Origin: Aureimonas sp. OT7 | GTDB lineage: Bacteria; Pseudomonadota; Alphaproteobacteria; Rhizobiales; Rhizobiaceae | Direction: 5' to 3' | DNA: 64,000 bases | Assembly (NCBI RefSeq): GCF_014844055.1 | Contig: NZ_CP062167.1 | Location: 62,001-126,000 of the forward strand | Part shown: positions 44,069 to 61,480 of the stretch, in pieces | How the letters are laid out: each line of letters starts with the position of its first letter | How positions within the stretch are numbered: the stretch's first letter is position 1 | The notes under the pieces: generated by a model | Database searches by the model: none | What the model saw: only the letters and a program-made list of their open reading frames with translations | Told to the model about the DNA's origin: nothing | Program-made: the position numbers and the translations under genes

Positions 44069-44096
44069 CTTAAGGCTGCCTTAAGCCTCGTATAGA
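44069..44096 (+). promoter_or_regulatory. PmrA-like box and promoter of the response regulator gene
   Basis: Two CTTAAG hexamers start at 44069 and 44080, exactly 11 bp apart, followed 5 bp later by a -10-like TATAGA (44091-44096). The spacing of one helical turn fits tandem binding by an OmpR-type regulator. The same motif occurs at 47007, 47171 and 47815. Enterobacterial PmrA recognises CTTAAG-N5-CTTAAG-like sites. Confidence 0.75.
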
Positions 44097-44125
44097 AATG
44101 CGACCTGGAACCTCGGGTGATAACC

Positions 44126-44788
44126 ATGCGCGTGCTGATAGTCGAAGATGATGCCGTCCTCAGAGACGGATTGACGGTGGGCCTTTCGATTGGCGGCTTC
44201 ACCGCCGATGCGGTCAAAACCTGCGAAGAAGCCGGCGCAGCTCTCACGAACCATGAGTTCGATGCGCTGGTGCTTGACCTGATGCTTCCCGACGGTTCCG
44301 GCCTCGACGTGCTGAAATCCCTGCGGGAACGGCAGGACGCCACGCCCGTCCTCCTCCTGACTGCGCGTGATCAGGTCGCCGACCGGATTCACGGACTGGA
44401 TGCGGGGGCCGACGACTATCTCGGCAAGCCGTTCGACCTCGACGAGGTCGCGGCGCGGCTGCGCGCGCTCGTCCGCCGTGCCGCTGGCCGGCCGCAGGCG
44501 CTTATCGAATGGCGCGGCCTGCGGCTCGATCCTGCAAACCAGAATGTCGAACACCAAGGCGAACCCATCCGCCTGTCGCGGCGCGAATACTCGATTTTGC
44601 ATGCCCTCATGATCCATCCCGGCCGGATCCTGTCGCGGAGCCAGATCGAGGAGAAGCTTTACGGCTGGCAGGAGGAGGTCGAGAGCAATGCTGTCGAGGT
44701 CCACATCCATCATCTTCGCGGCAAGCTGGGACCGGGCATGATCCAGACCGTCCGTGGGATCGGCTATCGCCTCGGAGACGAACCGTGA
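44126..44788 (+). CDS. OmpR-family response regulator (PmrA/QseB-like)
   Basis: The protein is 220 residues. The receiver domain has EDD acidic residues near the start, the phosphoacceptor D51 in LVLDLMLPDGSG, and KPFDLDE with the conserved Lys. The winged-helix output domain has LSRREYSILHALM, and the C-terminal NAVEVHIHHLRGKLG typical of PmrA/QseB/TctD regulators. The ATG at 44126 is chosen over a GTG at 44117. It overlaps the sensor kinase gene by TGATG. CTTAAG repeats before this and three other genes are its likely targets. Confidence 0.95.
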   Translation: MRVLIVEDDAVLRDGLTVGLSIGGFTADAVKTCEEAGAALTNHEFDALVLDLMLPDGSGLDVLKSLRERQDATPVLLLTARDQVADRIHGLDAGADDYLGKPFDLDEVAARLRALVRRAAGRPQALIEWRGLRLDPANQNVEHQGEPIRLSRREYSILHALMIHPGRILSRSQIEEKLYGWQEEVESNAVEVHIHHLRGKLGPGMIQTVRGIGYRLGDEP

Positions 44789-46128
44789 TGCCGTCGATCT
44801 CCAAACGGCTGTTCCTGATCCTCGCCCTGACCACCGGTCTCGTCTGGCTGTCGGCGGTCGTCTGGATTTTCCTTTCCACGCGCGCGGAGGTGGAACGGGT
44901 TCTCGACGCGCGGCTGATGGAAGCCGGCCGGATGGTTTCCTCATTGATCGTCAGCCAGGAGATCGCCATCGATCCGACGCAAACGATCACGTCCGATCTG
45001 CCGGTGCGCGGCCACAGCGCCTATGACCGCCAGCTTTCGTGCCAGATCTGGTCGCTGCAGGGGACATTGATCGGGCGATCGGATGCGGCGCCCGATCAAG
45101 CAATGTCGGAGCACACCGACGGGATCTCCGAAACCGTGATAAATGGTGAGCGGTGGCGGGTTTATGCAATCACCAATACCGAGCGCGGTGTTCGCGTTCT
45201 GGTCGGCGACAATCTGAGTATCCGTAACGGGTTGGTGAACGACGTCATCCGCGGTCTTCTCCTGCCGGTCCTGCTGATGTTGCCGGTTCTTGCTGTCCTG
45301 ATCTGGCTCAGCGTCAGGCGCGGCCTTGAGCCGCTAAGGAAGATCGCAGGCGACCTGGAAGCACGACCCGCCTCCGACCTCAGCCCGATCGAGGACGTGC
45401 AGACCGCGAAGGAGATTGCGCCGGTCTTGCAGTCGCTCAACGGATTGTTTGCACGCGTGGCCGGGCTTCGGGAACGCGAGCGCAACTTCACCGCCTTTGC
45501 CGCCCACGAACTGCGCACGCCGTTGGCCGGCCTCAAGACGCAGGCGCAGGTCGCGCTTGCAAGCGGCGATGGCACGATCCGCGAGCAGGCATTGCGTCAG
45601 ATCATGGTTGGCGTAGACCGCACCGGCCGGCTCGTTCGGCAATTGCTGGATATGTCGGCGGTTGAGGCGCTCGACCAGGGCGAGCGTAGTGGGAAGGTAT
45701 GGCCCGGGAGTATACTGAGAGCGCTCGCGGACGAATTAGCAGATCCGACCAGGGGCGTTGCGGTCGAGGTTTCCCCTGATCTTGACCGCATCGAGCTGGA
45801 CATCGAGCCGGATCTGTTCGCTCTTGCTGCCCGGAATCTGATGGAGAACGCTGTGAACCATTCGCCGCCCGGAGGCGTCGTCAGGTGTCGTGTGGCCGGC
45901 CCCGCCGAAGAGGGCCAGATGATCATCGAGGATGATGGTCCCGGTATCCCCGAGGAGGAGTTGGCCCGCGTCACCGAACGCTTCTTTCGCGGCCGCAACA
46001 AAGTACCGGTCGGCAGCGGTCTCGGTCTCGCGATCGTCGAACTGGCGCTCGGGCGGAGTGGTTGGCACCTACGACTTCAGAATCGCGATTGCGGAGGGCT
46101 GCAAGCGGTGATGGCGAACGCCGCGTGA
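44788..46128 (+). CDS. Sensor histidine kinase (QseC/PmrB-like)
   Basis: The protein is 446 residues. It has two membrane spans (about 7-30 and 155-178) around a periplasmic domain of about 120 residues, which contains a single Cys (RQLSCQIW). The HisKA domain has FAAHELRTPLAG with H240. The ATPase has NLMENAVNHSPPGG, EDDGPGIPEEE and GSGLGLAIVE. It phosphorylates the response regulator encoded just upstream. The signal is unknown; envelope or metal stress is suggested by the likely target genes. Confidence 0.95.
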   Translation: MPSISKRLFLILALTTGLVWLSAVVWIFLSTRAEVERVLDARLMEAGRMVSSLIVSQEIAIDPTQTITSDLPVRGHSAYDRQLSCQIWSLQGTLIGRSDAAPDQAMSEHTDGISETVINGERWRVYAITNTERGVRVLVGDNLSIRNGLVNDVIRGLLLPVLLMLPVLAVLIWLSVRRGLEPLRKIAGDLEARPASDLSPIEDVQTAKEIAPVLQSLNGLFARVAGLRERERNFTAFAAHELRTPLAGLKTQAQVALASGDGTIREQALRQIMVGVDRTGRLVRQLLDMSAVEALDQGERSGKVWPGSILRALADELADPTRGVAVEVSPDLDRIELDIEPDLFALAARNLMENAVNHSPPGGVVRCRVAGPAEEGQMIIEDDGPGIPEEELARVTERFFRGRNKVPVGSGLGLAIVELALGRSGWHLRLQNRDCGGLQAVMANAA

Positions 46129-46235
46129 CCCGTTGCACATACATGGTGCGGGGCGCAGCCAACTCATCTTCAAGAAGATGGAGTGCCAGCAGGATGCGCC
46201 AACGCAGGGAGTGATCTTCTCGCCGCGCGACGAAG

Positions 46236-46952
46236 CTATCCCACCAAAAGATGCCCCATAGCCGGATCTGCTATCACAACCAGCGGGCTCCCGTCGCGAA
46301 CGTTGTCGGCGAGGTGGATGACATCCTGATTGATCATCCGGATGCATCCTGATGAAACGGCCTGGCCGATGGTCCAGAATTCCGGGTTTCCGTGGATGCG
46401 ATAGATCGTGTCCCGGTTTCCTTCATGAATGTAGAGGGCGCGTGCTCCAAGTGGATTTTTCAGCCCCGGGTCCATGCCGCCATTGGCGATTGAGTAGGGC
46501 TCTAACTCGGGTTGGCGCGCAACCATTTCATCGGGAGGTGTCCAGCGCGGCCATTCCCGCTTGTATGCGATATGACGCCCTCGACCAGCCCACGAAAAAC
46601 CGTCCCTGCCGACACCCACACCGTATCGGGTTGCGCGGCCGTGAGGCTGAACGTGGTAGAGGTAACGGTTTGGCGTATCGACGATGACGATTCCGGCTCG
46701 TTCATCGGTTGGATAGTCGACTTCCGTCCGCCACCATTTCGGATCGACCTTGGAAACGTCGACTTCCGGGATCGGGAAGCGCTCGTTCGGCAGTGCGTAG
46801 TACATCGGGGGCGTCGGCGGCGGAGGAGGCATCGAGACCGGCTGCGCGACTTGCGGTGTTTGCCTCGTGGAAACGCATCCGGCGAGAGTCATTGCGCTGG
46901 CGCCAATGAGGAAAGCGCGTCGCGCGATTGCGGGTGTCGGTAGCTTGCTCAC
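46236..46952 (-). CDS. L,D-transpeptidase (YkuD domain) lipoprotein, second copy
   Basis: The protein is 238 residues from GTG 46952. The N-terminus has ARRAFLIGASAMTLAGC, combining twin Arg with a lipobox, then a Pro-rich linker. The catalytic domain has IAYKREWPRWTPPDEMVARQ, YRIHGNPEFWTIGQAVSSGC and IRMINQDVIHL. It is closely similar to the product at 21828-22604. An ATG at 47006 is rejected because it directly follows the CTTAAG repeat that should be promoter DNA. It is probably controlled by the adjacent two-component system. Confidence 0.93.
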   Translation of the reverse strand: MSKLPTPAIARRAFLIGASAMTLAGCVSTRQTPQVAQPVSMPPPPPTPPMYYALPNERFPIPEVDVSKVDPKWWRTEVDYPTDERAGIVIVDTPNRYLYHVQPHGRATRYGVGVGRDGFSWAGRGRHIAYKREWPRWTPPDEMVARQPELEPYSIANGGMDPGLKNPLGARALYIHEGNRDTIYRIHGNPEFWTIGQAVSSGCIRMINQDVIHLADNVRDGSPLVVIADPAMGHLLVG

Positions 46953-47006
46953 GTTTCGTACGCTCTCTGCTTTGCGATCAATCAGGCCGCACAGCACGAT
47001 GCCCAT

Positions 47007-47023
47007 CTTAAGAGCAGCTTAAG
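47007..47023 (-). promoter_or_regulatory. PmrA-like box upstream of L,D-transpeptidase
   Basis: CTTAAG occurs at 47007-47012 and 47018-47023, 11 bp apart. Since CTTAAG is its own complement, the site reads the same on both strands. It lies 54 bp before the chosen GTG start. Confidence 0.72.
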
Positions 47024-47170
47024 GTAAGCGCGGCCGAAGATAGCGAAGCGGCGGGGACTTCAGGCGCCGGCCTGCGGCTCAAGTGATCCGGCCGAACAGG
47101 TTTTCGATTGGGTGGGGGCACTTTGTTGGAAACGCGGGCTTGCGTCGCAGGCGAGGAGCACTTTTCCGCC

Positions 47171-47187
47171 CTTAAGCGGGCCTTAAG
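47171..47187 (+). promoter_or_regulatory. PmrA-like box upstream of thioredoxin-like gene
   Basis: CTTAAG occurs at 47171-47176 and 47182-47187, again exactly 11 bp apart. It is 40 bp before the ATG at 47228. Confidence 0.72.
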
Positions 47188-47227
47188 GAACGCCCGCTTT
47201 GCCGCCGGTCCTGTGAAGGAGACGAGG

Positions 47228-47767
47228 ATGCGGACGCGACTTTTAAGAAACAACGCCGTAGCGTCCGCGGAAGGTGTTGGATGCGGCATCGATGCTGATG
47301 CTCGACGCAAGAATGACCAATGGACCCGCCGCGAGCTTCTGCTCGGGGGCCTGGTGGTGCCGGTAGGATTGTTGGCGACTCCCAGCGGGATGGCCGCCGC
47401 CAATCCGGCTGCAATGGTCACGGACGTCGCTTCCTACCGGGAGAGACTGGAGCAGATCGCACGAACACATAGCTTCGCGCTCATCGACATCCGTGCGGAT
47501 TGGTGCGCGGTGTGCCACCGCATTGAGCGGGAAATCCTCGCCCACCCTGCTGTGCTGCAACACCTTGAGGCTGTCCCTCTCGTCAAGGTGGACGTCACGG
47601 CGATGGACGAGGGAAACCGCCAGCTCCTCTCCCACCTTCGAGCGAGCGGCCCGCCGACATTCTTCGTCGTGGATGCAGCCACCGGACAGGAATACAACGG
47701 CACCCGTTCGGTCGGACCGTTCAGCAGGCGCGATCTCATGCGGCGGTTGCGGCCGTTCACCCGATAG
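47228..47767 (+). CDS. Exported thioredoxin-like protein
   Basis: The protein is 179 residues. The N-terminal region has WTRRELLLGGLVVPVGLL, a likely Tat signal. The thioredoxin domain has DIRADWCAVCHRIEREIL with CAVC as redox centre and the cis-Pro region SGPPTFFVV. It resembles the C-terminal domain of DsbD, which carries DWCVIC in this cluster. It probably acts on periplasmic disulfides. The ATG at 47228 follows GAAGGAGACGAGG. A CTTAAG box precedes it. Confidence 0.85.
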   Translation: MRTRLLRNNAVASAEGVGCGIDADARRKNDQWTRRELLLGGLVVPVGLLATPSGMAAANPAAMVTDVASYRERLEQIARTHSFALIDIRADWCAVCHRIEREILAHPAVLQHLEAVPLVKVDVTAMDEGNRQLLSHLRASGPPTFFVVDAATGQEYNGTRSVGPFSRRDLMRRLRPFTR

Positions 47768-47814
47768 TCCGGAGTCAGGATAAACTGCCGTCGCATCTTC
47801 GGCTCAATGCGGTC

Positions 47815-47831
47815 CTTAAGACTGTCTTAAG
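47815..47831 (+). promoter_or_regulatory. PmrA-like box upstream of dsbA-dsbD-tlpA operon
   Basis: CTTAAG occurs at 47815-47820 and 47826-47831, 11 bp apart, before the DsbA-type gene. This is the fourth copy of the motif within 3.8 kb. Confidence 0.72.
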
Positions 47832-47881
47832 CTCGGGAGAGTGCGCTCGCTTCAATATCCATGATCTGGAGCTTTGAGACC

Positions 47882-48562
47882 ATGCACGATCGGCGCCTCT
47901 GCACACGTAGACCTCATCCTTTCGCTATGGGTAGGCCGCCGTTCCGCGGTGCATTGAGTCGGCGGACCTTGCTCTCGGGCCTGGCGGCGCTCGCTGCCGC
48001 CGGCTTTGCCATGCCCGTGCGTGCCGACGACATGTCAGCCGAGATGATCCTGAACGACCCGGAGGCGCCGGTCGGCGGCAACCCGAACGGCGACCTGACG
48101 ATCGTCTCGTTCTTTGACTATAACTGTCCTTTCTGCAAGCGCACCGTCGAGCCGCTGAATACGGTGCTGGAATCGGACGGCAATGTGCGTCACGTCTACA
48201 AGGACTGGCCGATCCTCGCGCAGTCTTCGGTCTATGGCGCAAAGCTGGCGTTGGCGGCCGGGTATCAGAACCGCTACGAGGAAGCCTATCTGGCGTTGAT
48301 GGGTATCGAAGGGTCGCGGGTGCCAGAAGAGCAGATGCGACAGGCATTGGAAGGTGCCGGCTTCGACACGGCGGGTCTCGAGACCGAAGCCAACCGCCGC
48401 GACGCCGAGATCACCGCCTTGCTTCAGCGCAATAACGCGCAGGCCGAGGGGCTCGGTCTGCGTGGCACGCCCGTGTTTCTGATCGGTCGGTTTCTCGTCG
48501 CCTCCGCCCTCGACGAGGACGGCTTCCGCCAGGTTGTCGCAGACGCTCGCGAAGCGTCTTGA
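47882..48562 (+). CDS. DsbA-family thiol:disulfide oxidoreductase
   Basis: The protein is 226 residues from the ATG at 47882; an in-frame ATG at 47861 is possible. The signal region is SRRTLLSGLAALAAAGFAMP with ARA-type cleavage. The thioredoxin fold has IVSFFDYNCPFCKRTVEPLN with active site CPFC, a helical insertion, and cis-Pro in LRGTPVFLIG. It resembles Com1/BdbD-like disulfide enzymes. It heads an operon with DsbD and TlpA-like genes under a CTTAAG box. Confidence 0.9.
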   Translation: MHDRRLCTRRPHPFAMGRPPFRGALSRRTLLSGLAALAAAGFAMPVRADDMSAEMILNDPEAPVGGNPNGDLTIVSFFDYNCPFCKRTVEPLNTVLESDGNVRHVYKDWPILAQSSVYGAKLALAAGYQNRYEEAYLALMGIEGSRVPEEQMRQALEGAGFDTAGLETEANRRDAEITALLQRNNAQAEGLGLRGTPVFLIGRFLVASALDEDGFRQVVADAREAS

Positions 48563-48594
48563 TGCATCCCGATCGCGATCATCCGAGTAATTTC

Positions 48595-50412
48595 ATGTCC
48601 TCAATGCCCATACTCCGCCTCCTTGCTGGCCTGTTCTTCGTCTTCCTGTCGCTGCCCGCCGCGGCGCAACAGGAGGATCTCCTGCAAGCCGAGGAAGCCT
48701 TCCGTTTCTCGGTTGAGCGGAATGCGGATCAGCAGATCCAACTCCGGTGGGAAATCGAGGAAGGCTATTACCTCTATCGCGATCATCTGGAAGCGAAGGA
48801 TGCCGCGACCGGCGAGCCGATCCCGCTGTCGACTGGACCGGGCGTCGTGGAGACAGAGGATGCCAACTTCGGTCCTTCGGAGGTCTATTATCTTGAAGCG
48901 GTGGCACGTCTCGGCACTGAAGCGCCCGGGCAGGTCGCAGTCACCTATCAGGGCTGCAAGAAGGATTCGATCTGCTATCCGCCGCTGACCCTGACGGTCA
49001 ACACGGCAAACCTTCAGGTTTCCGAACCCGTTGTCGGCTTTGGCATAGGTCCAACTCCGGCCGCCCCTGCCGGAGGGACGGGAAACGGCGGCTTCAGCCT
49101 GGCTGAGGACACGCAGGACGGCGGCATGGTCGGCTCGCTTCTCGCCAGCGGCGGTGCGATCTGGGTGATCGTGAGTTTCCTCGCCTTCGGGCTGTTGCTC
49201 GCCTTCACGCCCTGCGTGCTGCCCATGTATCCGATCCTGAGCGCGACCCTGGCGCGCGAGGGCGAGGCATTGACGGCCCGGCGCGGCTTCATCCTGTCTT
49301 TGGCCTATGTGCTGGCAATGGCCGCAGCGTTTGGCCTGCTTGGCGTGGTTGCCGCGTGGTCCGGCCAAAACCTCCAGATGGTGCTGCAATCGCCCTACGC
49401 CATTGGCGCCGTCGCAGCGCTGTTCGTCGTGCTGGCGACGGCGATGTTCGGCCTGTTCGAACTGCAACTGCCGACCACCTGGGTCAGCCGGATGGCAGGG
49501 GTACAGGCCGGCACGCGCGGCTCGGTGGGCGGAGCCGCCGGAATGGGCTTCCTTTCCGCGCTGATCGTCGGTCCCTGCGTCACCGCGCCGCTCGCCGCGG
49601 CACTTCTCTATATCGCACATACGGGCGATGCCTGGATCGGCGCGAGTGCGCTGTTTGCCCTCGGGCTCGGCCAAGGCATTCCGCTGATCGCCTTTGGCAC
49701 GATGGGGAGCCGCGCTCTGCCGCGTGCGGGGGCGTGGATGGTGCAGGTCAAATACGCGTTCGGCTTCGTCTTTCTCGGCGCGGCGATCTGGATGGTCTCC
49801 CGAATCCTGCCGCCGCAAGTGACGCTGGCGCTTTGGGCGGGCCTCCTCTTGATTGTTGCGGTCTTCATCGGCGTCGCTGATCGGCTCCTGGCCGATGCGG
49901 GTGCCTGGCCACGTTTCCGCAAAGCCGCCGGACTTGGGGTTTCCCTCGGCGGCGTCATCCTGGCGATCGGGGCGGCGTCGGGCGGGACCGACCCGCTACG
50001 TCCGCTCGCCCACTTCGTCATGACCGGTTCGGGCCAGCAGATCGCCCAGTCCGAGATGACATTCATCGAGGCAAACTCGACGCCGCAGGTCGAGCAAGCG
50101 ATTGCCTCTGCCAACGGACGTCCGACATTGGTCTATTTCACGGCCGACTGGTGCGTCATCTGCAAGACGATCGAACGCGACGTCTTTTCGAGCACGGAAA
50201 TCGTTGCCGCACTGAACGACTTCCAGCGTGTCAAGGTGGATCTGACCGGACTGGATGAGGCCAGTCAGGGTCTGATGCGCGATCTTGCTGTGGTCGGCCC
50301 ACCGACCATGATCTTCTTCAACCGAAATGCCTCGGAGGCAAACGGCTCCCGCCTCATCGGCGATGTGACAACCGATACGTTGCTGACATCGGTCTCTCAG
50401 GCGAGGCAGTGA
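48595..50412 (+). CDS. dsbD: DsbD protein-disulfide reductase
   Basis: The protein is 605 residues with the full three-part layout. A signal peptide (LLAGLFFVFLSLPAAAQ) leads the periplasmic alpha domain with TYQGCKKDSICYPPLT. The eight-span beta domain has FTPCVLPMYPILSATLA and GPCVTAPLAAALLY with the two membrane cysteines. The C-terminal thioredoxin domain has YFTADWCVICKTIERDVF. DsbD moves electrons from cytoplasmic thioredoxin to the periplasm. It follows the DsbA-type gene by about 30 bp and the next gene starts 1 bp after its stop. Confidence 0.95.
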   Translation: MSSMPILRLLAGLFFVFLSLPAAAQQEDLLQAEEAFRFSVERNADQQIQLRWEIEEGYYLYRDHLEAKDAATGEPIPLSTGPGVVETEDANFGPSEVYYLEAVARLGTEAPGQVAVTYQGCKKDSICYPPLTLTVNTANLQVSEPVVGFGIGPTPAAPAGGTGNGGFSLAEDTQDGGMVGSLLASGGAIWVIVSFLAFGLLLAFTPCVLPMYPILSATLAREGEALTARRGFILSLAYVLAMAAAFGLLGVVAAWSGQNLQMVLQSPYAIGAVAALFVVLATAMFGLFELQLPTTWVSRMAGVQAGTRGSVGGAAGMGFLSALIVGPCVTAPLAAALLYIAHTGDAWIGASALFALGLGQGIPLIAFGTMGSRALPRAGAWMVQVKYAFGFVFLGAAIWMVSRILPPQVTLALWAGLLLIVAVFIGVADRLLADAGAWPRFRKAAGLGVSLGGVILAIGAASGGTDPLRPLAHFVMTGSGQQIAQSEMTFIEANSTPQVEQAIASANGRPTLVYFTADWCVICKTIERDVFSSTEIVAALNDFQRVKVDLTGLDEASQGLMRDLAVVGPPTMIFFNRNASEANGSRLIGDVTTDTLLTSVSQARQ

Positions 50413-50413
50413 G

Positions 50414-51214
50414 ATGAACGCAGTCGCCATCGGGCCTTTCGTCTTCGCACCCGACCGCTTCGCCGCGATCCTCGCCATCGCCGCCTTTCTCCTGCTGAGC
50501 GAGATCCTCGCCCGCAAGGTCGATCAGCGCTTTTCGTCCTGGGCCTGGGGCGCGACCGTCGCTTTCGTGGTCGGCGCGCGCGTCGGGCACGTCATCCAGC
50601 ACGCGAGCAGTTTCCTCGCCGAGCCGCTGCGCGTATTCTACATGTGGCAGGGCGGCTTCATGATCGAAGCCGGCATTGCGCTGGCGTTCGCCTACACGTT
50701 CTTTCGCTTCCGGCGCGAATTGCGGCTCACATTGTGGACGGCCCTGCCGAGCGCCGCTGCGGCCTATGTCGCGTTCTTCGTACTGCAGCTCAGCGCCGGC
50801 GTGCCGGCGACACCGCTGCCGACCGGAGACATCTACCGCACGCTGGCCGGAGAACGGTTCAATCCAAGTGAACTCGAAGGTCAACCTGTGGTCATCAACC
50901 TGTGGGCGACGTGGTGCCCGCCCTGCCGCCGTGAAATGCCGATGATGGCGGACGTTGCCGCAAATACGGACGCTGCCGAACTTGTCTTCGTCAACCAAGG
51001 TGAAGGCCAGGAGATCATTCAGCGCTACCTCACAGCCGAGAATCTTGAGCTTGAGCATGTGGTGCTCGACGGACTCGGTGAGTTCGGTCGTCATTACGAG
51101 GTACCGGGCCTGCCGGCTACGTTGTTCCTCAAGAGCGACGGGACGCTGCAATCGGTACACATGGGCGAGATCTCAAGAGAAGCCCTCGTGAGCGGCATTC
51201 AAGGTCTCGAATAG
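50414..51214 (+). CDS. Lgt-like membrane domain fused to TlpA-type thioredoxin
   Basis: The protein is 266 residues. The first about 130 form four or so membrane spans with a pattern recalling part of prolipoprotein diacylglyceryl transferase (WGATVAFVVGARVGHVI, FYMWQGGFMIEAGI). The second half is a TlpA/ResA-like domain with PVVINLWATWCPPCRREMPM and cis-Pro LPATLFL. It would be a membrane-tethered reductant fed by DsbD. The gene lies 1 bp after dsbD. Catalytic Lgt residues are not obvious, so the membrane part is probably an anchor. Confidence 0.85.
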   Translation: MNAVAIGPFVFAPDRFAAILAIAAFLLLSEILARKVDQRFSSWAWGATVAFVVGARVGHVIQHASSFLAEPLRVFYMWQGGFMIEAGIALAFAYTFFRFRRELRLTLWTALPSAAAAYVAFFVLQLSAGVPATPLPTGDIYRTLAGERFNPSELEGQPVVINLWATWCPPCRREMPMMADVAANTDAAELVFVNQGEGQEIIQRYLTAENLELEHVVLDGLGEFGRHYEVPGLPATLFLKSDGTLQSVHMGEISREALVSGIQGLE

Positions 51215-51345: not shown

Positions 51346-51849
51346 TTAGGGCCTTTGATCGAGACGAGCCTTAATTGTCTCCATCTGCTCGATCTCGCTG
51401 CGCTGGGCTGCGATGATTTCTTCGCAAAGCGTCAGCAATTCAGCATCGCGCAGGTCTGCTTCCCGGCACATGAGGATCGCGCCCGAGTGGTGCGGGATCA
51501 TCGAATCGATGAACTGCCCGTCACCGATCAGGGTTTGGCTTCGTGTGGCTGCGAATGAGGCGATCGTCAAGACGAGGAAGACGGCGTAGAGGGTGATATT
51601 GAGCCCTTTTCGCGGAAACATGCCGGGCATCGTTGCCAGCATGAAGATGCCCATCGGCGCCCACATGGTCACGGCCATGTAGAACATGTTGAGATTGTTT
51701 CGGAAATCTTGAAATCCGTCGATCATCGAGAACATGACGACGTACATGACGATCAGGCCGAGCGCCATGTTGATCCAGAACATCAGGTAGGGACGTCCTT
51801 CGCCGTGATCGGCGTGTTCGTGCTTGCCATTATGGGACGATTGGGTCAT
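51346..51849 (-). CDS. Membrane-anchored DUF305 protein
   Basis: The protein is 167 residues. A His-rich start (NGKHEHADHGEG) is followed by three spans (FWINMALGLIVMYVVMFSMI and others). The DUF305 motif is FIDSMIPHHSGAILMC. DUF305 proteins are common in copper-resistance clusters and may bind metal through the HH pair. It is the last gene of the CsoR-led operon, 22 bp after the glutaredoxin-MauE gene. Confidence 0.88.
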   Translation of the reverse strand: MTQSSHNGKHEHADHGEGRPYLMFWINMALGLIVMYVVMFSMIDGFQDFRNNLNMFYMAVTMWAPMGIFMLATMPGMFPRKGLNITLYAVFLVLTIASFAATRSQTLIGDGQFIDSMIPHHSGAILMCREADLRDAELLTLCEEIIAAQRSEIEQMETIKARLDQRP

Positions 51850-51871
51850 CTCGTGGCTCCTTGGTTTTCGC

Positions 51872-52639
51872 TTAATGTCCGAGACCGATGCCCATGGGCT
51901 TGAGTAGCATCCAGATCGCCATTCCGACCATCATCAGGTTCTCCGTCAGCGAGACGAAGCCGAGCGGAACGTTGCTGTCACCGCCAACGCAGGCGCATTT
52001 GAGTTCGCGCTTGTCGATATAGACCGCCTTGAAGACCGATACGGCTCCGACAGTGCCGATGAAGAGGGCAACGGGGATCGACAGCCACATCAGCGCGCCG
52101 GCCATCATCAGGATGCCCGCCAGCGCTTCGGCGAACGGATAGACGTAGGAGTAGCGCACCCAGCGCTGGGCGAACAGATCGTAGTTGAGGAACATGGTAG
52201 CGAAGCTTTCCACGTCCTTGAGCTTCTGCAGGGCGAGCAGACACATGGCGATGGCAATGAACCATTCTGCCGCCGCAACGGTCGCAAGGGTACCGAACGC
52301 GGCCCAACTCGTCGCTAGCGCCATCAACGCAGCCATCGCGAACAACGCGATCACCGGCGTATAGGTGGTGGCGTCCTTGTCCTTTACCTCCTTGCCGAAG
52401 AAGGCGAGAAGATCGTCGTAGCCGCCGATGCGATTGCCGCCGATAAAGGTCTGCGGTGTGGTGTCGACGCCGTGCGTTTTCTTGAAAGCATCGATCTCGG
52501 CGCGCGACGTCAGCTCATGATCGTTGACCTCGTAGCCCTGCCGTTTCAGGAGGTCGAGCGATTTGAGACCGTAGGGACAGGTATGTTCGTGGGTCACCAT
52601 CCTGTGCAGGTCGGCGCGTTTTGCGGTGGAAGTGGCCAT
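51872..52639 (-). CDS. Glutaredoxin-MauE fusion membrane protein
   Basis: The protein is 255 residues. Residues 1-85 form a glutaredoxin-like domain with HTCPYGLKSLDLLKRQGYEV and TTPQTFIGGNRIGGYDDL; the usual CPYC centre is CPYG, so it is monothiol. The rest has about four spans of the MauE/DoxX type, including RWVRYSYVYPFAEALAGILM, and a C-terminal CACVGGDSN cysteine pair. It may pass electrons between a thiol and the membrane. It is cotranscribed with CsoR and DUF305 genes. Confidence 0.88.
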   Translation of the reverse strand: MATSTAKRADLHRMVTHEHTCPYGLKSLDLLKRQGYEVNDHELTSRAEIDAFKKTHGVDTTPQTFIGGNRIGGYDDLLAFFGKEVKDKDATTYTPVIALFAMAALMALATSWAAFGTLATVAAAEWFIAIAMCLLALQKLKDVESFATMFLNYDLFAQRWVRYSYVYPFAEALAGILMMAGALMWLSIPVALFIGTVGAVSVFKAVYIDKRELKCACVGGDSNVPLGFVSLTENLMMVGMAIWMLLKPMGIGLGH

Positions 52640-52657
52640 GTCGTCAGTCCTTCGATT

Positions 52658-52933
52658 TCAGAGTTTTGCTTTTGCGAACACCTCGACCAACTCGCTGAAT
52701 TTGCGGCGTTGCGCGTCCGCATCACCTGCCGCTATCGCTTCCTCGACACAGCAAGCGGCGTGGGTCTTGAGGATTTCGGTCTCGACCTTGGCCAGCGCCG
52801 CCTTGATGGCGTGGATCTGATGCAGGATATCGATGCAGTAACGGTCATCGGCCACCATCTGGCTGACCCCTCGCACCTGTCCTTCGATTCGCTTGAGCCT
52901 CGCGCGGAGGGCTTTGTTGTCCTTCTGGCACAT
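52658..52933 (-). CDS. csoR: CsoR-type copper-sensing repressor
   Basis: The protein is 91 residues and all-helical: LRARLKRIEGQVRGVSQMVA is the family N-terminus. The copper ligands of CsoR are at the right spacing: C33 (DRYCIDIL), H58 (LKTHAACC) and C62. Cu(I) binding releases CsoR from DNA. The ATG at 52933 is chosen because longer frames enter the operator. A CsoR-like dyad lies 10 bp upstream, so the operon is probably autoregulated. Confidence 0.92.
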   Translation of the reverse strand: MCQKDNKALRARLKRIEGQVRGVSQMVADDRYCIDILHQIHAIKAALAKVETEILKTHAACCVEEAIAAGDADAQRRKFSELVEVFAKAKL

Positions 52934-52942
52934 GGCCGTAAA

Positions 52943-52959
52943 ATACCCCGTATGGGTAT
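52943..52959. promoter_or_regulatory. CsoR operator
   Basis: ATACCC-CGTAT-GGGTAT is a perfect 6-bp dyad immediately before csoR. The TACCC/GGGTA halves match the known type of CsoR/RcnR-family sites. Confidence 0.75.
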
Positions 52960-53055
52960 ATTTAAGGTTCGAGAGCCATCTTGGTTCCCTCCGATCAAAA
53001 AATCTCGCCGGCGCTTTCTGTCTGCTTTGCACCATTGTCGCGATCATCAGTGGGG

Positions 53056-53086
53056 TTGACCTTCCAATGGTTGGAACCCTCATCTT
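53056..53086 (+). promoter_or_regulatory. CueR-type promoter 1 (before 58-residue ORF)
   Basis: A -35 TTGACC (53056-53061) and a -10 CATCTT (53081-53086) have a 19-bp spacer holding the dyad TTCCAA-TGG-TTGGAA. Long spacers with this dyad are the mark of MerR/CueR-activated promoters. Confidence 0.8.
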
Positions 53087-53111
53087 GGAGGGCCAAACGA
53101 AGGAGATGGAC

Positions 53112-53288
53112 ATGAAGATCAGAGCCGAGAATCTGATCGCCGCAGTTGGAGAGCTTCGGGTCGGGTTGCTTGCGGTCAGGGATCTGGCCGATACGCTGTT
53201 ATCCCTGGTCGAGGCCCGCGGACGCATCACCATTTTCGAAACAGGGTTCCAGACGTGGTTCAGCGTCCACGCGAGCCGTTTGCCTTGA
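53112..53288 (+). CDS. Small unknown protein under a CueR-type promoter
   Basis: The protein is 58 residues, MKIRAENLIAAVGELRVGLL and so on, ending FQTWFSVHASRLP. It has no Cys and one His. An amphipathic helix is likely in the first 35 residues. The ATG at 53112 has AAGGAG six bases upstream; an ATG at 53106 is too close to it. I do not recognise a family. It is the only frame downstream of CueR-type promoter 1, which supports a copper-related role, as inference. Confidence 0.55.
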   Translation: MKIRAENLIAAVGELRVGLLAVRDLADTLLSLVEARGRITIFETGFQTWFSVHASRLP

Positions 53289-53362
53289 CCGAAGGCGCAC
53301 CGATGGGGCGCTTGTCGCCTTCGCGGTGGCAACCGTCCTCGTGCTGATGACCGGCAAAGGAA

Positions 53363-53385
53363 AAGGGCGGAATTGATCCGCCCTT
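53363..53385. terminator. Bidirectional terminator
   Basis: AAGGGCGGA pairs with TCCGCCCTT around ATTGA. On the - strand it is followed by TTTT, so it terminates the copZ-DUF305 operon; it could also stop the small + strand gene. Confidence 0.75.
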
Positions 53386-53392
53386 CACCGTC

Positions 53393-53797
53393 TCATTGGC
53401 TGCGCTTGGCCAGCCATTCCTGCATCTGCGCGATTTCCGCCTCCTGGGCGGAGATGACCTCCTCAGCAAGTGCTCGCACCTCGGGGTCTGATCCGTGTTC
53501 GAGAACGACACGAGCCATGTCGATGGCGCCCTGGTGATGGGGGATCATGCCGCGCATGAAATCCTCATCCGCATCGCCCGTAAACTCGATCGCCATATCG
53601 GCATGCATCTTGTCGTTGACTTGCTGGTAGGCGCGAATGACAGGGTTATCCGAAGGCGCGGTGGCGCCGTGTCCGGCATGTTCGCCGTGATTCATGGTCG
53701 CTCCTTGGCCTTGCTCGTCCATCTGAGACTGTGCGTAGGCGAGTCCGCCAGCAATGACGAACGCGCCGGCAATGAAGATCGGGGTGAGCTTGTTCAT
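53393..53797 (-). CDS. Secreted DUF305 protein
   Basis: The protein is 134 residues with a signal peptide ([18 protein letters not shown]). A His-rich stretch [10 protein letters not shown] precedes the DUF305 domain, whose hallmark is [20 protein letters not shown]. It is a probable periplasmic copper-binding protein. It lies 14 bp after copZ in the same operon and ends just before a strong terminator. Confidence 0.9.
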
Positions 53798-53811
53798 GAC
53801 ACAGCTCCTGG

Positions 53812-54006
53812 TCAGTTTACAGTTGCAGGATAGCCGGCTTCTTCGAGAACCTGCTGAATAGCCCCCGCACTAGCAGTCGTCTCAACCTTGACCGCCCGCG
53901 CCTCCGGATTCGTCTCCACCCTGGCGGTGGGGTCGACTGACTGGATCGCCTTGGTGACGGATTTTGCGCAGCCACCGCAGGTCATGTTCTCGATTCTGAG
54001 TTCCAT
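53812..54006 (-). CDS. copZ: CopZ-like copper chaperone (HMA domain)
   Basis: The protein is 64 residues, a single heavy-metal-associated domain. The metal motif is [14 protein letters not shown] with CGGC in place of the common CxxC spacing CASC. It would carry Cu(I) to CopA in the cytoplasm. It is divergent from copA, each gene having its own CueR-type promoter in the 159-bp spacer. Confidence 0.93.
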
Positions 54007-54038
54007 GAGAATTCTCCTTGTTTGGTCTCACGTTGCCA

Positions 54039-54069
54039 AATGTGGGGCTTCCAACCATGGGAAGGTCAA
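54039..54069 (-). promoter_or_regulatory. CueR-type promoter 2 (before copZ)
   Basis: On the - strand, TTGACC (54069-54064), a 19-bp spacer with the dyad CTTCC-N7-GGAAG, and CACATT (54044-54039). It drives copZ and the DUF305 gene. Confidence 0.78.
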
Positions 54070-54094
54070 TGGCGATTTTTCTCTGTTTGTCCTC

Positions 54095-54125
54095 TTGACC
54101 TTCCCATGGTTGGAAATCCCATCTT
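54095..54125 (+). promoter_or_regulatory. CueR-type promoter 3 (before copA)
   Basis: TTGACC (54095-54100), a 19-bp spacer holding TTCC-N7-GGAA, and CATCTT (54120-54125). The -10 is identical to that of promoter 1. A good AAAGGAGG site and the copA ATG follow. Confidence 0.8.
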
Positions 54126-54165
54126 CTGTCCGAACTGGAATTTCGGGACAAAAAAGGAGGCGGCT

Positions 54166-56724
54166 ATGAATGCCCCCGTTCGAGCAACAGACCTGTCTGG
54201 AACGATATCACTCCCCATTGAGGGGATGACCTGTGCATCCTGCGTAGGTCGTGTCGAAAGAGCCCTCAAGGCCGTGCCTGGCGTCGCCGATGCGGTCGTC
54301 AATCTGGCGACCGAAAAGGCGAGCATCACCACGAACGCTGCGGTCGATCCTGCCACTCTCGTCAAGGCCGTGGAGGATGTAGGCTATGAGGTTGCGGCAA
54401 GCTTCTCCGCGCCGACGGCAGCCTCGCTTGAAGTGGCGATCGAGGGCATGACCTGCGCATCCTGCGTGGGACGCGTCGAAAAGGCGCTCAAGGCCGTACC
54501 CGGCGTCACTAATGCCGTCGTCAACCTCGCGACCGAGAAGGCCACGATCCAGGGCAGCGCCGATGCGGCGGCTTTGGTGGCTGCCATCGAGGGCGCGGGA
54601 TACGACGCCAGGGTGATCGCCACGGCGGCAGGAACCAGCCAGGGCGAGACGGATGATCGTACCGAAAAGAAGGAAGCGGAACGTCGTGAACTGACCCGCG
54701 ATTTCACCATCGCGGCGGTGCTGACGGTGCCTGTCTTCATCCTGGAGATGGGCTCACACGTCATTCCGGGCATGCATGACCTGATCGCTTCAACCATCGG
54801 CATGCAGACGAACTGGTATATCCAGTTCGTGTTGACGACCATCGTCCTGTTCGTTCCGGGTATCCGCTTTTACGACAAGGGGCTGCCCGCCCTGTGGCGG
54901 CTCGCCCCCGACATGAACTCGCTGGTCGCGGTCGGCACGCTCGCCGCCTATGGCTATTCGCAGGTCGCGACCTTCGCGCCCGGTTTCCTGCCTGCCGGAA
55001 CGGTGAACGTCTATTTCGAGGCTGCCGCCGTCATCGTGACGCTGATCCTGCTCGGCCGTTTGCTGGAGGCTCGTGCCAAGGGACGCACCTCCGAGGCGAT
55101 CAAGCGTCTCGTCGGCCTTCAGGCCAAGATGGCGCGCGTGCGCAGGGACGGCAAGACGATCGAACTGCCGATCGACGCCGTGCTGTCGGGAGACATCGTC
55201 GAGGTTCGTCCCGGCGATCGCATCCCGGTGGATGGCGAGGTCATCGAAGGCCAGAGCTATGTCGACGAATCGATGATCACGGGCGAACCGATCCCGGTGT
55301 CCAAAACGAATGGCAGCGAGGTCGTGGCCGGAACGGTGAACCAGAAGGGCGCCTTTGCCATCCGTGCGACGGCGGTCGGCGGCAACACGGTGCTGTCGCA
55401 GATCATCCGCATGGTCGAGGAAGCGCAAGGCTCAAAGCTACCGATCCAGGCGCTGGTCGACAAGGTCACGATGTATTTTGTGCCGGCGGTGTTTGCGGTA
55501 GCGATCCTCACCTTCGCCGCATGGATGTGGTTCGGCCCGTCGCCCGCGCTGACCTTCGCTCTGGTCAATGCCGTCGCCGTCCTGATCATCGCCTGCCCCT
55601 GCGCCATGGGTCTGGCGACGCCGACCTCGATCATGGTGGGCACGGGCCGCGGTGCGGAACTGGGCGTGCTCTTCCGCAAGGGCGAAGCGTTGCAGCTGCT
55701 CAAGGACGCCAGGGTCGTCGCCGTCGACAAGACGGGCACACTGACCGAAGGCAAGCCTGCGCTCACCGATCTGGAACTGGCCATCGGATTCAACCGGGCA
55801 AATGTCCTCGGTTTGGTTGCGGCCGTCGAAGCGAAGTCGGAGCATCCGATCGCCCGTGCGATCGTGGATGCGGCCGCCGGGGAGGACATCCCGCTGCCGG
55901 CCGTGTCGGACTTCGAGTCGGTGACGGGTTTCGGCGTCAAGGCCATGGTCGGCGGCAGCCAAGTCGAGATTGGCGCTGACCGCTACATGGCAGACCTCGG
56001 CCACGACGTAGCTGCCTTCGCCAAGATTGCCGAACGTCTCGGCAATGAGGGCAAGTCACCGCTCTATGCCGCCATCGACGGCAAGCTCGCGGCGATTATC
56101 GCCGTGGCCGATCCGATCAAGGAGACGACGCCCGCAGCGATCAAGGCGCTGCACGATCTCGGCCTCAAGGTCGCGATGATCACCGGCGACAATGCCCGCA
56201 CGGCAAAAGCCATCGCGGCTCGGCTGGGGATCGACGAGGTGGTGGCGGAAGTGCTGCCGGACGGCAAGGTCGACGCTGTACGCCGCCTCAAAGCCCAGCA
56301 TGGCAAGGTCGCTTTCGTCGGCGATGGCATCAACGACGCTCCGGCGCTGGCCGAAGCGGATGTGGGCCTTGCCATCGGCACGGGTACGGACATTGCCATC
56401 GAGGCAGCCGACGTGGTGCTGATGTCGGGCAGCCTGCAAGGCGTGCCGAACGCGATCGCACTGTCCAAGGCGACGATCGGCAACATCCGGCAGAACCTGT
56501 TCTGGGCCTTTGCCTACAACACGGCTCTGATCCCCGTTGCCGCCGGTCTGCTCTATCCGGCCTACGGCATCCTGCTGTCGCCGGTCTTTGCCGCCGGCGC
56601 GATGGCCCTGTCGAGCGTCTTCGTCCTCGGCAACGCGCTGAGGCTCAAGACCTTCCGCGCGCCCGCGCAGGCGGAAAGCGGCGCAGTCCGGCCCCGTCAG
56701 CCTGAACTTGCGCCTGCGGAATGA
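54166..56724 (+). CDS. copA: CopA-type Cu(I)-exporting P1B-ATPase
   Basis: The protein is 852 residues. Two N-terminal metal domains each carry GMTCASC (Cys 23/26 and 97/100). Eight spans follow, with the membrane metal site CPC in [11 protein letters not shown]. The ATPase has TGEPIPV, the phosphorylation motif [20 protein letters not shown] with the HP motif, and [14 protein letters not shown]. It pumps Cu(I) out of the cytoplasm. The ATG at 54166 has AAAAAGGAGG. It is divergent from copZ and under a CueR-type promoter. Confidence 0.96.
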
Positions 56725-56730
56725 GAAACA

Positions 56731-56756
56731 GGCGAGCCTGCTTCGGCAGGCTCGCC
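56731..56756 (+). terminator. UUCG-loop hairpin after copA
   Basis: GGCGAGCCTGC-TTCG-GCAGGCTCGCC is a perfect 11-bp stem with a stable tetraloop. No T run follows, so it may be an mRNA-stabilising or processing element instead of a full stop; the next gene begins 20 bp later. Confidence 0.55.
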
Positions 56757-56776
56757 ACATGTAAAGGAATGAAGCG

Positions 56777-57040
56777 ATGACCAATACGGGAACTCCGTCA
56801 GTGGTGCTGTATACCACGCCAACCTGCCCCGATTGCCATGCCGTCAAGCGATGGCTTGCTGACCAGGGTGTCCCATTCGAAGAGCGTGACCTGTCAGATC
56901 CGCAGATCGCCGAAGAGGCGAAAGCGCGGACCGGCGTGCGCGTTGCCCCGATCACGATTGTCAACGAACAGGTCTTCTATGGCACCTTTGCTGACCAGAA
57001 ACCTCGTCTGGCGGAAGCCCTGTCATCGGGCGCCGCCTGA
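56777..57040 (+). CDS. Glutaredoxin-like protein (NrdH type)
   Basis: The protein is 87 residues with TTPTCPDCHAVKRWLADQGV, a dithiol CPDC centre, the cis-Pro part RVAPITIVNEQVFYG, and no signal peptide. It is a cytoplasmic thiol reductant. It is placed between copA and a ferredoxin reductase, so it may help handle Cu(I) or glutathione. The ATG follows AAAGGAATGAAGCG. Confidence 0.88.
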   Translation: MTNTGTPSVVLYTTPTCPDCHAVKRWLADQGVPFEERDLSDPQIAEEAKARTGVRVAPITIVNEQVFYGTFADQKPRLAEALSSGAA

Positions 57041-57051
57041 GGGAGATTGTC

Positions 57052-58068
57052 ATGGGAAGACAAATCGAAATTCGGCAGGCGGGGCGCATCATCGACGTGC
57101 CGGATGGCCGAACCATTCTGGAGAGAGCGCTAGAAGAAGGGATCGCATATCCTCATGGATGCCGTTCGGGCCGCTGCGGCTCGTGCAAGTCCCGACTGGT
57201 CAGCGGCGAGGTCGATCTTCTGCCGCACACGCGCTTTGCCCTGACGGACGATGAGCGGTCTCAGGGACTGATCCTTGCATGCCGCGCGCAGCCGCTCACG
57301 GATTGCACGGTCGCATGGCTCGATGAGGAGGAAGAACAGCTTGATCTTCCCGTCCGCACCTATCGCACGCGGGTTGTCGCGATCGATGACGCAACCCACG
57401 ACATCCGGCAAATCAGGCTGGAGGTCGAAACGGGAGAGGCCGTCGCGTTCAAGGCGGGCCAGTATGCGCAGGTGACGTTCGATGGCGTTCCGGCGCGCGA
57501 CTATTCGATGGCGAACCAGCCGGGTCGAGACCATCTCGAATTCCACATCAGGCATGTGCCCGGTGGAGCGACGAGCGAACACGTCGCCAGGTCACTCAAG
57601 GTCGGCGACGAGGTTTCGGTTCGCGGGCCGCTCGGCAGTTCGTTTCTGCGCGAACAGCATACGGGTCCAATTCTGGCGGTCGCCGGCGGATCGGGACTGG
57701 CGCCGATCAAGTCGATTGTCGAAACGGCGCTGGCAAGCGGCCTGCGGCAGCCGATCCATCTCTATTTCGGGGCACGGACGGAACGTGATCTCTATCTCGT
57801 CGATCATTTCAGTCTTCTGGCGAGCACCTACGACAACCTCACCTTCATGCCCGTGCTTTCGGAGGTGAGCCGATCCGATCACTTCCGAACCGGCCTGGTA
57901 ACGGATGCGATCGTGAGTGACGTGCAGGACCTCAATGGCTGGAAGGCATATATGGCCGGACCGCCTGCCATGATCGATGCTTCCGGCATCATGCTTCGCG
58001 AACTGGGCTTGCGCGGCGAGGACATACATGCGGACGTGTTTTTTACGCCCGAAGAAGCGCCTACATAA
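57052..58068 (+). CDS. 2Fe-2S ferredoxin-NAD(P)H reductase
   Basis: The protein is 338 residues. Residues 1-90 form a plant-type ferredoxin with CRSGRCGSCKSRLVSG and a fourth Cys in LILACRAQ. The FAD domain has RDYSMAN, and the NAD domain has GGSGLAPIKSIVETAL and YMAGPPAMIDASG. This is the layout of reductase components of oxygenases such as phenol hydroxylase. No oxygenase lies nearby. It follows the glutaredoxin gene by 11 bp, so its partner is unknown. Confidence 0.92.
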   Translation: MGRQIEIRQAGRIIDVPDGRTILERALEEGIAYPHGCRSGRCGSCKSRLVSGEVDLLPHTRFALTDDERSQGLILACRAQPLTDCTVAWLDEEEEQLDLPVRTYRTRVVAIDDATHDIRQIRLEVETGEAVAFKAGQYAQVTFDGVPARDYSMANQPGRDHLEFHIRHVPGGATSEHVARSLKVGDEVSVRGPLGSSFLREQHTGPILAVAGGSGLAPIKSIVETALASGLRQPIHLYFGARTERDLYLVDHFSLLASTYDNLTFMPVLSEVSRSDHFRTGLVTDAIVSDVQDLNGWKAYMAGPPAMIDASGIMLRELGLRGEDIHADVFFTPEEAPT

Positions 58069-58088
58069 GTCGAAGAAAGGAACCAGCG

Positions 58089-58604
58089 ATGAACATCGGT
58101 AAAGCAGCGGCGGCATCAGGCGTCTCGGCGAAGATGATCCGCTACTACGAATCGATCGGATTGATCGCGGAAGCGTCGCGGACGGATAGCGGATACCGGG
58201 ATTACTCCGATAAGGACGTGCATACGTTGCGTTTTATCAGGCGTGCGCGCGATCTCGGTTTCTCGGTCGAGAAAATGACGGAACTGCTTGCGCTCTGGCG
58301 AGACCGAGACCGGGCGAGCGCGGACGTCAAGCGCGTGGCGCTCGAGCATGTCGAAGAACTTGAACGGAAGGCGCGTGAACTCAGGGAGATGAGCATGACG
58401 CTCAAGCACCTTGCCGAGAACTGCCGGGGCAATGCCCGGCCGGACTGCCCGATCATCGATGAGTTGGCGACGACTGATGACCCTGAGACCAGCCCCACAC
58501 ACACCCGCGATCGTTCCGGCGCGACAGGGAACAGGTTCGAGCACACGAGGCCCGTCGTGTCGGCGAAGGCGGAAAGAAGCGGTCACGGTGCCAGGGAGCA
58601 ATAG
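58089..58604 (+). CDS. cueR: CueR-type copper-responsive MerR activator
   Basis: The protein is 171 residues. The MerR helix-turn-helix is MNIGKAAAASGVSAKMIRYY followed by ESIGLI. The Cu(I) ligands C112 and C120 are in ENCRGNARPDCPI at exactly the CueR positions. A tail of about 45 residues beyond the metal loop is longer than in E. coli CueR and looks disordered. It should twist the 19-bp-spaced promoters found before the small ORF, copZ, copA and the second ATPase. Confidence 0.93.
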   Translation: MNIGKAAAASGVSAKMIRYYESIGLIAEASRTDSGYRDYSDKDVHTLRFIRRARDLGFSVEKMTELLALWRDRDRASADVKRVALEHVEELERKARELREMSMTLKHLAENCRGNARPDCPIIDELATTDDPETSPTHTRDRSGATGNRFEHTRPVVSAKAERSGHGAREQ

Positions 58605-58606
58605 CC

Positions 58607-58813
58607 ATGACGCTTGCCGGCGAAATCCTGCACCTGTTCAAACGGGCATGTTCGGACGGCGACATGGAAGTTGCCGAGAAGCTATTGCAGGCTCTTGAAC
58701 TGATTGATGCGCGAGGGCTCGGCGTCGCAGCTTCGCACAAGCCGTTGTCTCAAGCTTATCTGGCTATCGGAGAACTTCCTGTGCCTCCGAAAAAATGTCA
58801 GCGGCATCACTAG
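58607..58813 (+). CDS. Small hypothetical protein after cueR
   Basis: The protein is 68 residues starting MTLAGEILHLFKRACSDGDM and EVAEKLLQALELIDARG. The first half looks helical, like a TPR-type pair of helices. Its ATG lies 2 bp after the cueR stop, so it is probably translated with cueR. I do not recognise a family. Confidence 0.5.
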   Translation: MTLAGEILHLFKRACSDGDMEVAEKLLQALELIDARGLGVAASHKPLSQAYLAIGELPVPPKKCQRHH

Positions 58814-58919
58814 GACATCATCCGTTCAATGAGGCCCAAGGATGGATGAGCCGGAAACGGGACGGGTCAATGCCGACTTCGCAGGTCAACAACTGCCCGC
58901 GTAGGCGGGACTCCGAAAC

Positions 58920-59390: not shown

Positions 59391-59496
59391 GTTCAGTAAC
59401 GAGGAATTGCAACGCACGAGATGGCAAGGAGGATTTGCCAGTGGTGCGACACCATTTGCAATAGACATTCCGGTGAGTAGTACCTATCGTTCCAGT

Positions 59497-59856: not shown

Positions 59857-59929
59857 TCGCGCCCGGGCATTCGGCCCGCGGCCTTCCGACAGCTTTGAGG
59901 AACGGGACTGCGGTCCCGAGGAGACGACC

Positions 59930-61438: not shown

Positions 61439-61450
61439 GCAGCGTGCTGG

Positions 61451-61480
61451 CAGGAGGACGCCGGCACCGGCGTCCTCCTG
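61451..61480 (+). terminator. Strong hairpin between oxidase and CDF genes
   Basis: CAGGAGGACGCCGG pairs with CCGGCGTCCTCCTG, a perfect stem with a minimal loop. No T run follows. The next ribosome-binding site starts 7 bp downstream, so it may shape mRNA decay or translation instead of ending transcription. Confidence 0.5.

Follow-up and report, generated by a model that had tools for sequence, protein, structure and literature searches.

A tandem CTTAAG box joins a QseB/PmrA-like two-component system to L,D-transpeptidase and DsbD-pathway genes in a candidate thiol-stress regulon of Alphaproteobacteria

The 64,000-nucleotide stretch of the Aureimonas sp. OT7 genome analyzed here (contig NZ_CP062167.1, positions 62,001 to 126,000; hereafter the window) contains a response regulator and sensor kinase gene pair accompanied by genes for an L,D-transpeptidase (LDT), a thioredoxin-like protein, and DsbA, DsbD, and TlpA proteins, with four exact copies of the tandem motif CTTAAG-N5-CTTAAG standing before them (table 1). 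An initial annotation had placed these four boxes, each with 11-bp spacing, and had named the genes behind them; all four boxes are exact, and the gene identities agree with Pfam, which was used to assign the domains of ten window proteins, with further scoring against NCBIfam models. We refer to the two-component system, its boxes, and the partner genes as the module, and consider the regulon itself, on comparison with relatives, to be well supported.

Table 1. Boxes and genes of the module, in window coordinates.
Feature	Positions	Strand	Placement or basis
Box 1, CTTAAG-GCTGC-CTTAAG	44069..44085	.	40 bp upstream of response regulator start
Response regulator, QseB/PmrA-like OmpR family, receiver + winged helix	44126..44788	+	Pfam, PDB, NCBIfam
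Sensor histidine kinase, QseC-like (2CSK_N, HisKA, HATPase), Cys85	44788..46128	+	Pfam
L,D-transpeptidase (YkuD), probable lipoprotein, LAGC lipobox, catalytic SSGCIR	46236..46952	-	Pfam, PDB; GTG start inferred
Box 2, CTTAAG-AGCAG-CTTAAG	47007..47023	.	Upstream of L,D-transpeptidase
Box 3, CTTAAG-CGGGC-CTTAAG	47171..47187	.	Upstream of thioredoxin-like gene
Thioredoxin-like protein, signal-like N-terminus, most like DsbD C-terminal domain	47228..47767	+	Pfam, NCBIfam
Box 4, CTTAAG-ACTGT-CTTAAG	47815..47831	.	Upstream of dsbA-dsbD-tlpA
DsbA-fold thiol oxidoreductase, CPFC, Thr-Pro at cis-Pro position, probable Tat (twin-arginine translocation) signal	47861..48562	+	Pfam
DsbD protein-disulfide reductase (DsbD_N, membrane, thioredoxin parts)	48559..50412	+	Pfam, NCBIfam
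TlpA/ResA-like thioredoxin, N-terminal Lgt-like membrane part	50414..51214	+	Pfam

In shuffled versions of the window the motif had a mean of 0.29 matches even at up to two mismatches, and none of 100 shuffles produced four or more. Eight of the ten CTTAAG hexamers in the window lie inside the four boxes, which are also the only exact sites in the 4,181,223-base genome; a control motif with reversed hexamers has no exact site there. At up to two mismatches the genome holds 16 motif sites versus 77 for the reversed control, and one of the 16, at 2,561,950, has a single mismatch. The motif is not frequent elsewhere in this genome; the initial annotation had recognized that a motif common away from promoters would speak against its proposal. 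Boxes 2 and 3 occupy one divergent intergenic region and can be assigned from the sequence to the leftward LDT and the rightward thioredoxin-like gene, respectively. For the LDT, the GTG at 46952 is a more probable start than the ATG at 47006 and would place its box 54 bp upstream, matching the distances of the other boxes. PmrA is known to recognize a box of tandem CTTAA-type half sites, and the module boxes have such half sites with the 11-bp period of the PmrAB/QseBC subfamily.

The association of the box with these genes extends well beyond Aureimonas. When named genomes were scanned using an alignment of 20 regulators, at least 588 loci emerged, of which the best 80 were retained; the choice rested solely on the regulator protein. 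Of the 25 loci with a partner gene, 24 have an exact box no more than 200 bp from the regulator, versus 3 of the 55 without, confirming the expectation that the motif would be conserved before these genes in relatives; neither boxes with spacings of 3, 4, 6, or 7 nor the reversed hexamers were found within the same 200 bp in any of the 80 loci. Two of the three box-bearing loci without a partner (L088 and L117) sit in the module clade by the regulator tree. The third (L133), which has a betaproteobacterial regulator, carries overlapping tandem boxes of 11-bp period upstream of it, at 2302-2340, with four consecutive half sites of which the first is inexact. In the regulator tree, box, partner genes, and a kinase cysteine described below fall in one 28-row group that includes the window (Shimodaira–Hasegawa-like approximate likelihood ratio test [SH-aLRT] support 98), with three changes for the box, one for the cysteine, and three for the module. 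All three features are characteristic of a single alphaproteobacterial clade of QseB/PmrA-like regulators.

The 27 clade loci outside the window bear out the target set of LDT and disulfide genes proposed in the initial annotation: an exact box is present in 26, an LDT in 22, DsbA in 21, DsbD in 16, and TlpA in 7, and 18 combine an LDT with DsbD or DsbA (partner genes counted within 8.5 kb; the flank is shorter than 8 kb in 6 of the 27). No LDT, DsbA, DsbD, or TlpA was found at the same thresholds in any of the 53 comparison loci, where a looser threshold yields only a weak LDT (32% identity, L114), DsbD (27%, L120), and TlpA (28%, L137). A DNA search of plasmids, which yielded 584 records, provided a further sample, nine loci being examined from among the 20 matches listed. 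All nine have an exact box directly upstream of the regulator, and since the DNA matches start beyond the box, these loci were not selected for it. On the annotated plasmids (Rhizobium, Agrobacterium, and Paracoccus) the regulator–kinase pair faces dsbD-tlpA-ldt and dsbA genes; the unannotated records among the nine are from Ensifer, Sinorhizobium, Paracoccus, and Shinella.

Gene order is shuffled between module loci, and the boxes stay with the genes, being found before dsbD alone, ldt alone, dsbA alone, and tlpA, between ldt and the thioredoxin gene, and before dsbG. In 54 module loci, counting near-copies, 84 exact boxes are followed by an open frame. A target could be identified for 72 of these, of which 46 stand between two divergent targets, most commonly regulator and dsbD (22), regulator and ldt (8), or regulator and dsbA (8). 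The consensus of 80 distinct boxes is CTTAAG-SCWGS-CTTAAG, in which the spacer is also conserved; palindromic half sites and a nearly symmetric spacer would suit an operator that works in two directions. The distance from box to regulator start is typically 33–54 bp. A motif-based census of 151 genomes gave 41 boxes in 25 other genomes, of which 40 were examined; for 26 of them a module gene starts no more than 300 bp away. The remaining 14 comprise one upstream of a COX1 gene, one upstream of a dsbG homolog, one repeat (a contig-end copy of the stretch upstream of dsbA), one elsewhere in the genome of another Aureimonas species (G013), and ten lone boxes. Boxes before dsbG were seen in L027 (13563) and L049 (13864), with one-mismatch boxes in L028 and L063; in L028 the dsbG box lies behind genes annotated blh-bigR.

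The regulator had been described as PmrA/QseB-like, which is upheld by its nearest PDB sequence, BasR (PmrA), and by its family scores; a box stands upstream of its own gene. In its recognition helix it is similar to BasR/PmrA (ESNAVEVHIHHLRGKLG and TNTLEVHIHNLREKIG), and the phospho-acceptor D51, together with T79 and K101, is invariant in the 20 aligned regulators. Against NCBIfam models it scores 234.8 of 345 bits for QseB and 234.5 of 330 bits for PmrA, both under the cut-off. The kinase is QseC-like and at 260.7 of 475 bits likewise remains below the cut-off of the curated QseC equivalog.

The periplasmic stretch of this kinase, bounded by hydrophobic segments near residues 7–31 and 149–180, has a single cysteine, Cys85, within RQLSCQIW. 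This cysteine is present in all 45 module kinases compared (the window plus 44 loci picked to drop most near-copies). Among 51 comparison kinases position 85 is Phe in 31, has no residue in 5, and is Cys in only one, which belongs to L090, itself a module locus (no kinase frame was obtained from three further comparison loci, and L066, a copy of L056, was dropped). Cys85 is also found in 117 of the 120 nearest kinase homologs listed, of 2068 in the database, the other three being without that part of the protein, and the window kinase and all 117 have exactly one cysteine in the periplasmic stretch. A QseC-like kinase with one invariant periplasmic cysteine where most comparison kinases have Phe is a new observation. 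In a structure model (mean predicted local distance difference test score [pLDDT] 79, predicted template modeling score [pTM] 0.51), from which exposure and dimer contacts are not readable, Cys85 is predicted to be the second residue of the first sensor-domain strand (84–89), behind a disordered loop (58–80).

Sixteen of the 17 window-type LDTs (at least 57% identity) have only the lipobox cysteine and that of SSGC[IV]R after the signal part, so that the mature form has a single, catalytic, nonlipid cysteine, also a new observation; in the 17th (L051), a run-on frame, the catalytic motif is missing. A second LDT type, with 37 rows whose starts are untrimmed, matches the catalytic pattern in 26. 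DsbD scores 498.7 bits against the NCBIfam model PRK00293 (cut-off 330) and retains all six cysteines in 31 of 31 module homologs. The thioredoxin-like protein matches positions 457–570 of the same model at 66.6 bits, far under the cut-off for a whole DsbD. In the DsbA protein, CXXC is invariant in 36 of 36 module homologs and Thr-Pro is kept in at least 90%, so that by sequence the protein has the CXXC and Thr-cisPro features of an ScsC-like thioredoxin fold. Among solved sequences 3gyk is the closest to it, followed by ScsC-type proteins. A twin-arginine-type pattern occurs near the N-terminus of 30 of the 36, suggesting that this thioredoxin-fold protein may be exported via Tat. The membrane part of the TlpA protein resembles prolipoprotein diacylglyceryl transferase (Lgt), and full-length relatives of the protein are found in other module loci.

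We propose, with a probability of about two in three, that the module is a stand-alone redox/thiol-stress regulon of the alphaproteobacterial envelope, in which LDTs would be produced together with a DsbD pathway that maintains the reduced state of their catalytic cysteine; of this proposal, we infer the thiol sensing by the kinase and the protection of the transpeptidases. The QseC-like kinase would read the state of its single periplasmic cysteine, oxidation or mixed-disulfide formation at Cys85 altering its activity. Phosphorylated regulator would then bind the conserved CTTAAG-SCWGS-CTTAAG sites and activate its own gene and its targets. The targets would be LDTs and a periplasmic reducing chain in which DsbD feeds the ScsC/DsbG-like DsbA protein, TlpA, and thioredoxin. 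By extension from the known action of DsbG on such enzymes, this chain may re-reduce oxidized transpeptidases and perhaps the kinase cysteine as well, closing a feedback loop. Of the envelope, metal, or thiol stress named in the initial annotation we favor thiol/redox stress and drop the wider range, because the invariant periplasmic cysteine points to the former. Only tentatively would we go further, to a Phe-to-Cys change that made a QseC-type kinase a one-cysteine thiol sensor and a substrate of the DsbD-fed reductases that protect the LDTs, so that a single closed loop would both gauge and restore the reducing capacity open to these cross-linking enzymes, in a self-contained module that passes between species.

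LDTs and other periplasmic enzymes that have just one reactive cysteine must stay reduced in an oxidizing compartment, and the joint recurrence of box, genes, and kinase cysteine in related bacteria suggests a dedicated switch that may keep cell-wall enzymes working when the envelope is oxidized. If this is true, cells sense and manage periplasmic thiol oxidation directly, through a dedicated regulon of enzymes and reductases, and this sensing becomes testable with one point mutation. The box, being defined, can also serve to predict additional targets in rhizobia, methylobacteria, Paracoccus, and related bacteria.

Several observations weigh against the thiol-stress proposal. The co-occurrence of box and partner genes is conservation after what looks like one origin and not repeated independent gain: with box, module, and cysteine in one clade, the contrast of 24 of 25 versus 3 of 55 loci has to be read as shared descent, and an independent-pairs comparison of box and module has only two to three usable pairs. 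The partner set is variable: of the 27 clade loci, 6 of which have a flank shorter than 8 kb, 5 lack an LDT close to the regulator and 11 lack DsbD there. Sphingobium L090 has two degenerate boxes and no exact one. In 11 of the 37 second-type LDT rows the catalytic pattern is unmatched, and those of L041 and L043 have an extra cysteine. No −10-like element occurs at a fixed distance behind the boxes of the module loci. In ten census genomes the only box lies more than 300 bp from any module gene start, and across the 151 genomes the motif, at 45 sites, is not notably commoner than its reversed control, at 41. Genome-wide enrichment of the motif as such was accordingly rejected, and it is informative by its placement only, not by its total count. 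Finally, some boxes precede the respiratory genes COX1 and cytochrome c, so that the regulon may be wider or serve a different purpose.

The individual parts of the module are familiar at the family level. PmrAB and QseBC (PreAB) share with it the regulator and kinase families, the recognition helix, tandem CTTAA-type boxes, and local targets, and self-regulation is probable in the module as well; for PreA, passages of PMC2653508 describe both self-regulation and local targets. The module differs in scoring under the curated cut-offs, in having Cys where most comparison kinases have Phe, and in its targets, which are ldt and dsb genes and not ygiW, mdaB, or pmrAB. In its proposed working it resembles HprSR-MsrPQ of Escherichia coli, portrayed in passages of PMC9302797 as a two-component system driving repair of oxidized periplasmic proteins; HprSR-MsrPQ differs in serving methionine repair and in an HprR box, CATTACAAAATTGTAATG in the same passages, that is unlike that of the module. 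The module regulator reaches 151 bits against the HprR model (cut-off 353), which places it outside HprR, and Pfam detected no MsrP or MsrQ domain among the ten window proteins scanned. The pairing of enzymes has a precedent in E. coli DsbG, which according to passages of PMC3526765 interacts with periplasmic transpeptidases whose single cysteine forms sulfenic acid under oxidant and protects them from sulfenylation. Both cases combine single-cysteine transpeptidases with a Dsb reductase, and they differ in that these passages name no common dedicated regulator, whereas the module genes share one box. With Scs systems the module has in common a DsbD-like membrane reductase, an ScsC-like protein with Thr-Pro at the cis-Pro site, and a TlpA-like protein. 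It differs in a DsbD that is canonical by score, in the attached transpeptidase and kinase pair, and in copper genes that are not conserved; membership of Scs was rejected on the 498.7-bit DsbD score against the cut-off of 330, a comparison made with the DsbD model and no ScsB model. Among the matches listed in the open full-text literature, the subscription literature lying outside the search, we found no description of a two-component system for an LDT plus DsbD, nor of the regulon, the two-way box, or the cysteine kinase.

A QseBC/PmrAB-type system sensing a metal or cationic signal, with the dsb and ldt genes as incidental local targets and the cysteine in a structural or metal-ligating role, is an unlikely alternative. 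Equal scores for QseB and PmrA, a kinase nearest to QseC, and the metal island that adjoins the module in the window are in keeping with it. Passages of PMC2653508 name the DxxE of PreB, an example of an acidic metal-binding motif, and in the columns at least 90% conserved across the 45 module kinases there is no acidic i,i+3 pair of this type; the periplasmic part conserves just a single Met and a single Cys. Both the Phe found at the cysteine position in 31 of 51 comparison kinases and the lack of copper genes as conserved neighbors are further arguments against this alternative, although the cysteine may have a structural role.

The initial annotation had connected the module with the copper island beside it. 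We consider a copper-stress regulon of Scs type, in which copper oxidizes or ligates thiols and the Scs/DsbD proteins and transpeptidases form the response, to be improbable. Copper reportedly inhibits LDTs, to go by the title of a 2018 report by Peters. The ScsC of Caulobacter, a type of protein that is among the nearest solved relatives of the module DsbA, has Thr-cisPro, is kept reduced by ScsB, and binds Cu(I) in the passages of PMC8900818. The island (window 51346-62473) comprises two DUF305 proteins, a MauE–glutaredoxin fusion, a CsoR-type metal-sensitive repressor, a heavy-metal (Cu-type) P-type ATPase, a MerR-type regulator, a multicopper oxidase, and a cation-efflux protein. When homologs of nine of its proteins were sought in 53 module loci, near-copies included, they were found in only nine, six of these being ATPases at ~30% identity; high identity is limited to L048, with a MauE-like protein (72%), and L027, with a multicopper oxidase (50%). 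The scan for exact sites over the whole genome found no box before a copper gene, and DsbD exceeds the curated DsbD cut-off. Copper was therefore rejected as a conserved link or unifying signal, and this part of the earlier proposal falls.

Still less probable is a regulon for respiratory or sulfur-metabolism enzymes, such as oxidase or cytochrome maturation or sulfide detoxification, with the transpeptidase as an incidental member. No partner is more frequent than LDT (22 of 27), and many loci have a separate box for it, whereas the respiratory and sulfur genes appear in few loci, as seen without a systematic search for them: exact boxes lie 59–100 bp from a COX1-type oxidase subunit I gene in three loci (L032:15997, L062:4428, and L073:13473) and near cytochrome c and DoxX genes, and blh-bigR adjoins the module on the Agrobacterium K224 and Rhizobium X9 plasmids, with the same order in Rhizobium Q54. 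That the boxes are chance or inherited functionless sequence, for example a methylation or restriction site, is scarcely credible, given the exact spacing in 26 of 27 clade promoters versus 13 of 27 for the commonest other hexamer and the separate boxes before rearranged target genes, even if CTTAAG is a rare palindrome here and totals over the 151 genomes are near those of the reversed control.

The module of the window lies in DNA that is nearly identical in another species of the genus. Identity to G013 is 85–92% in matching pieces of window 6293–25507 and 99.98–100% across window 25622–64000, the left edge of the shared stretch lying at 25507–25622, where identity to this sister species jumps. 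This jump indicates that the module belongs to DNA shared recently, over 38 kb or more. A second genome (G011) matches at 99.97% from window 48765 on, where its contig starts, and of the 21 genomes from the genus, 4 have a strong DsbD match, in one case at 50% identity. Within the shared stretch, at window 30118–30498, an integrase-core (rve) remnant is fused in frame to a LysR-type piece.

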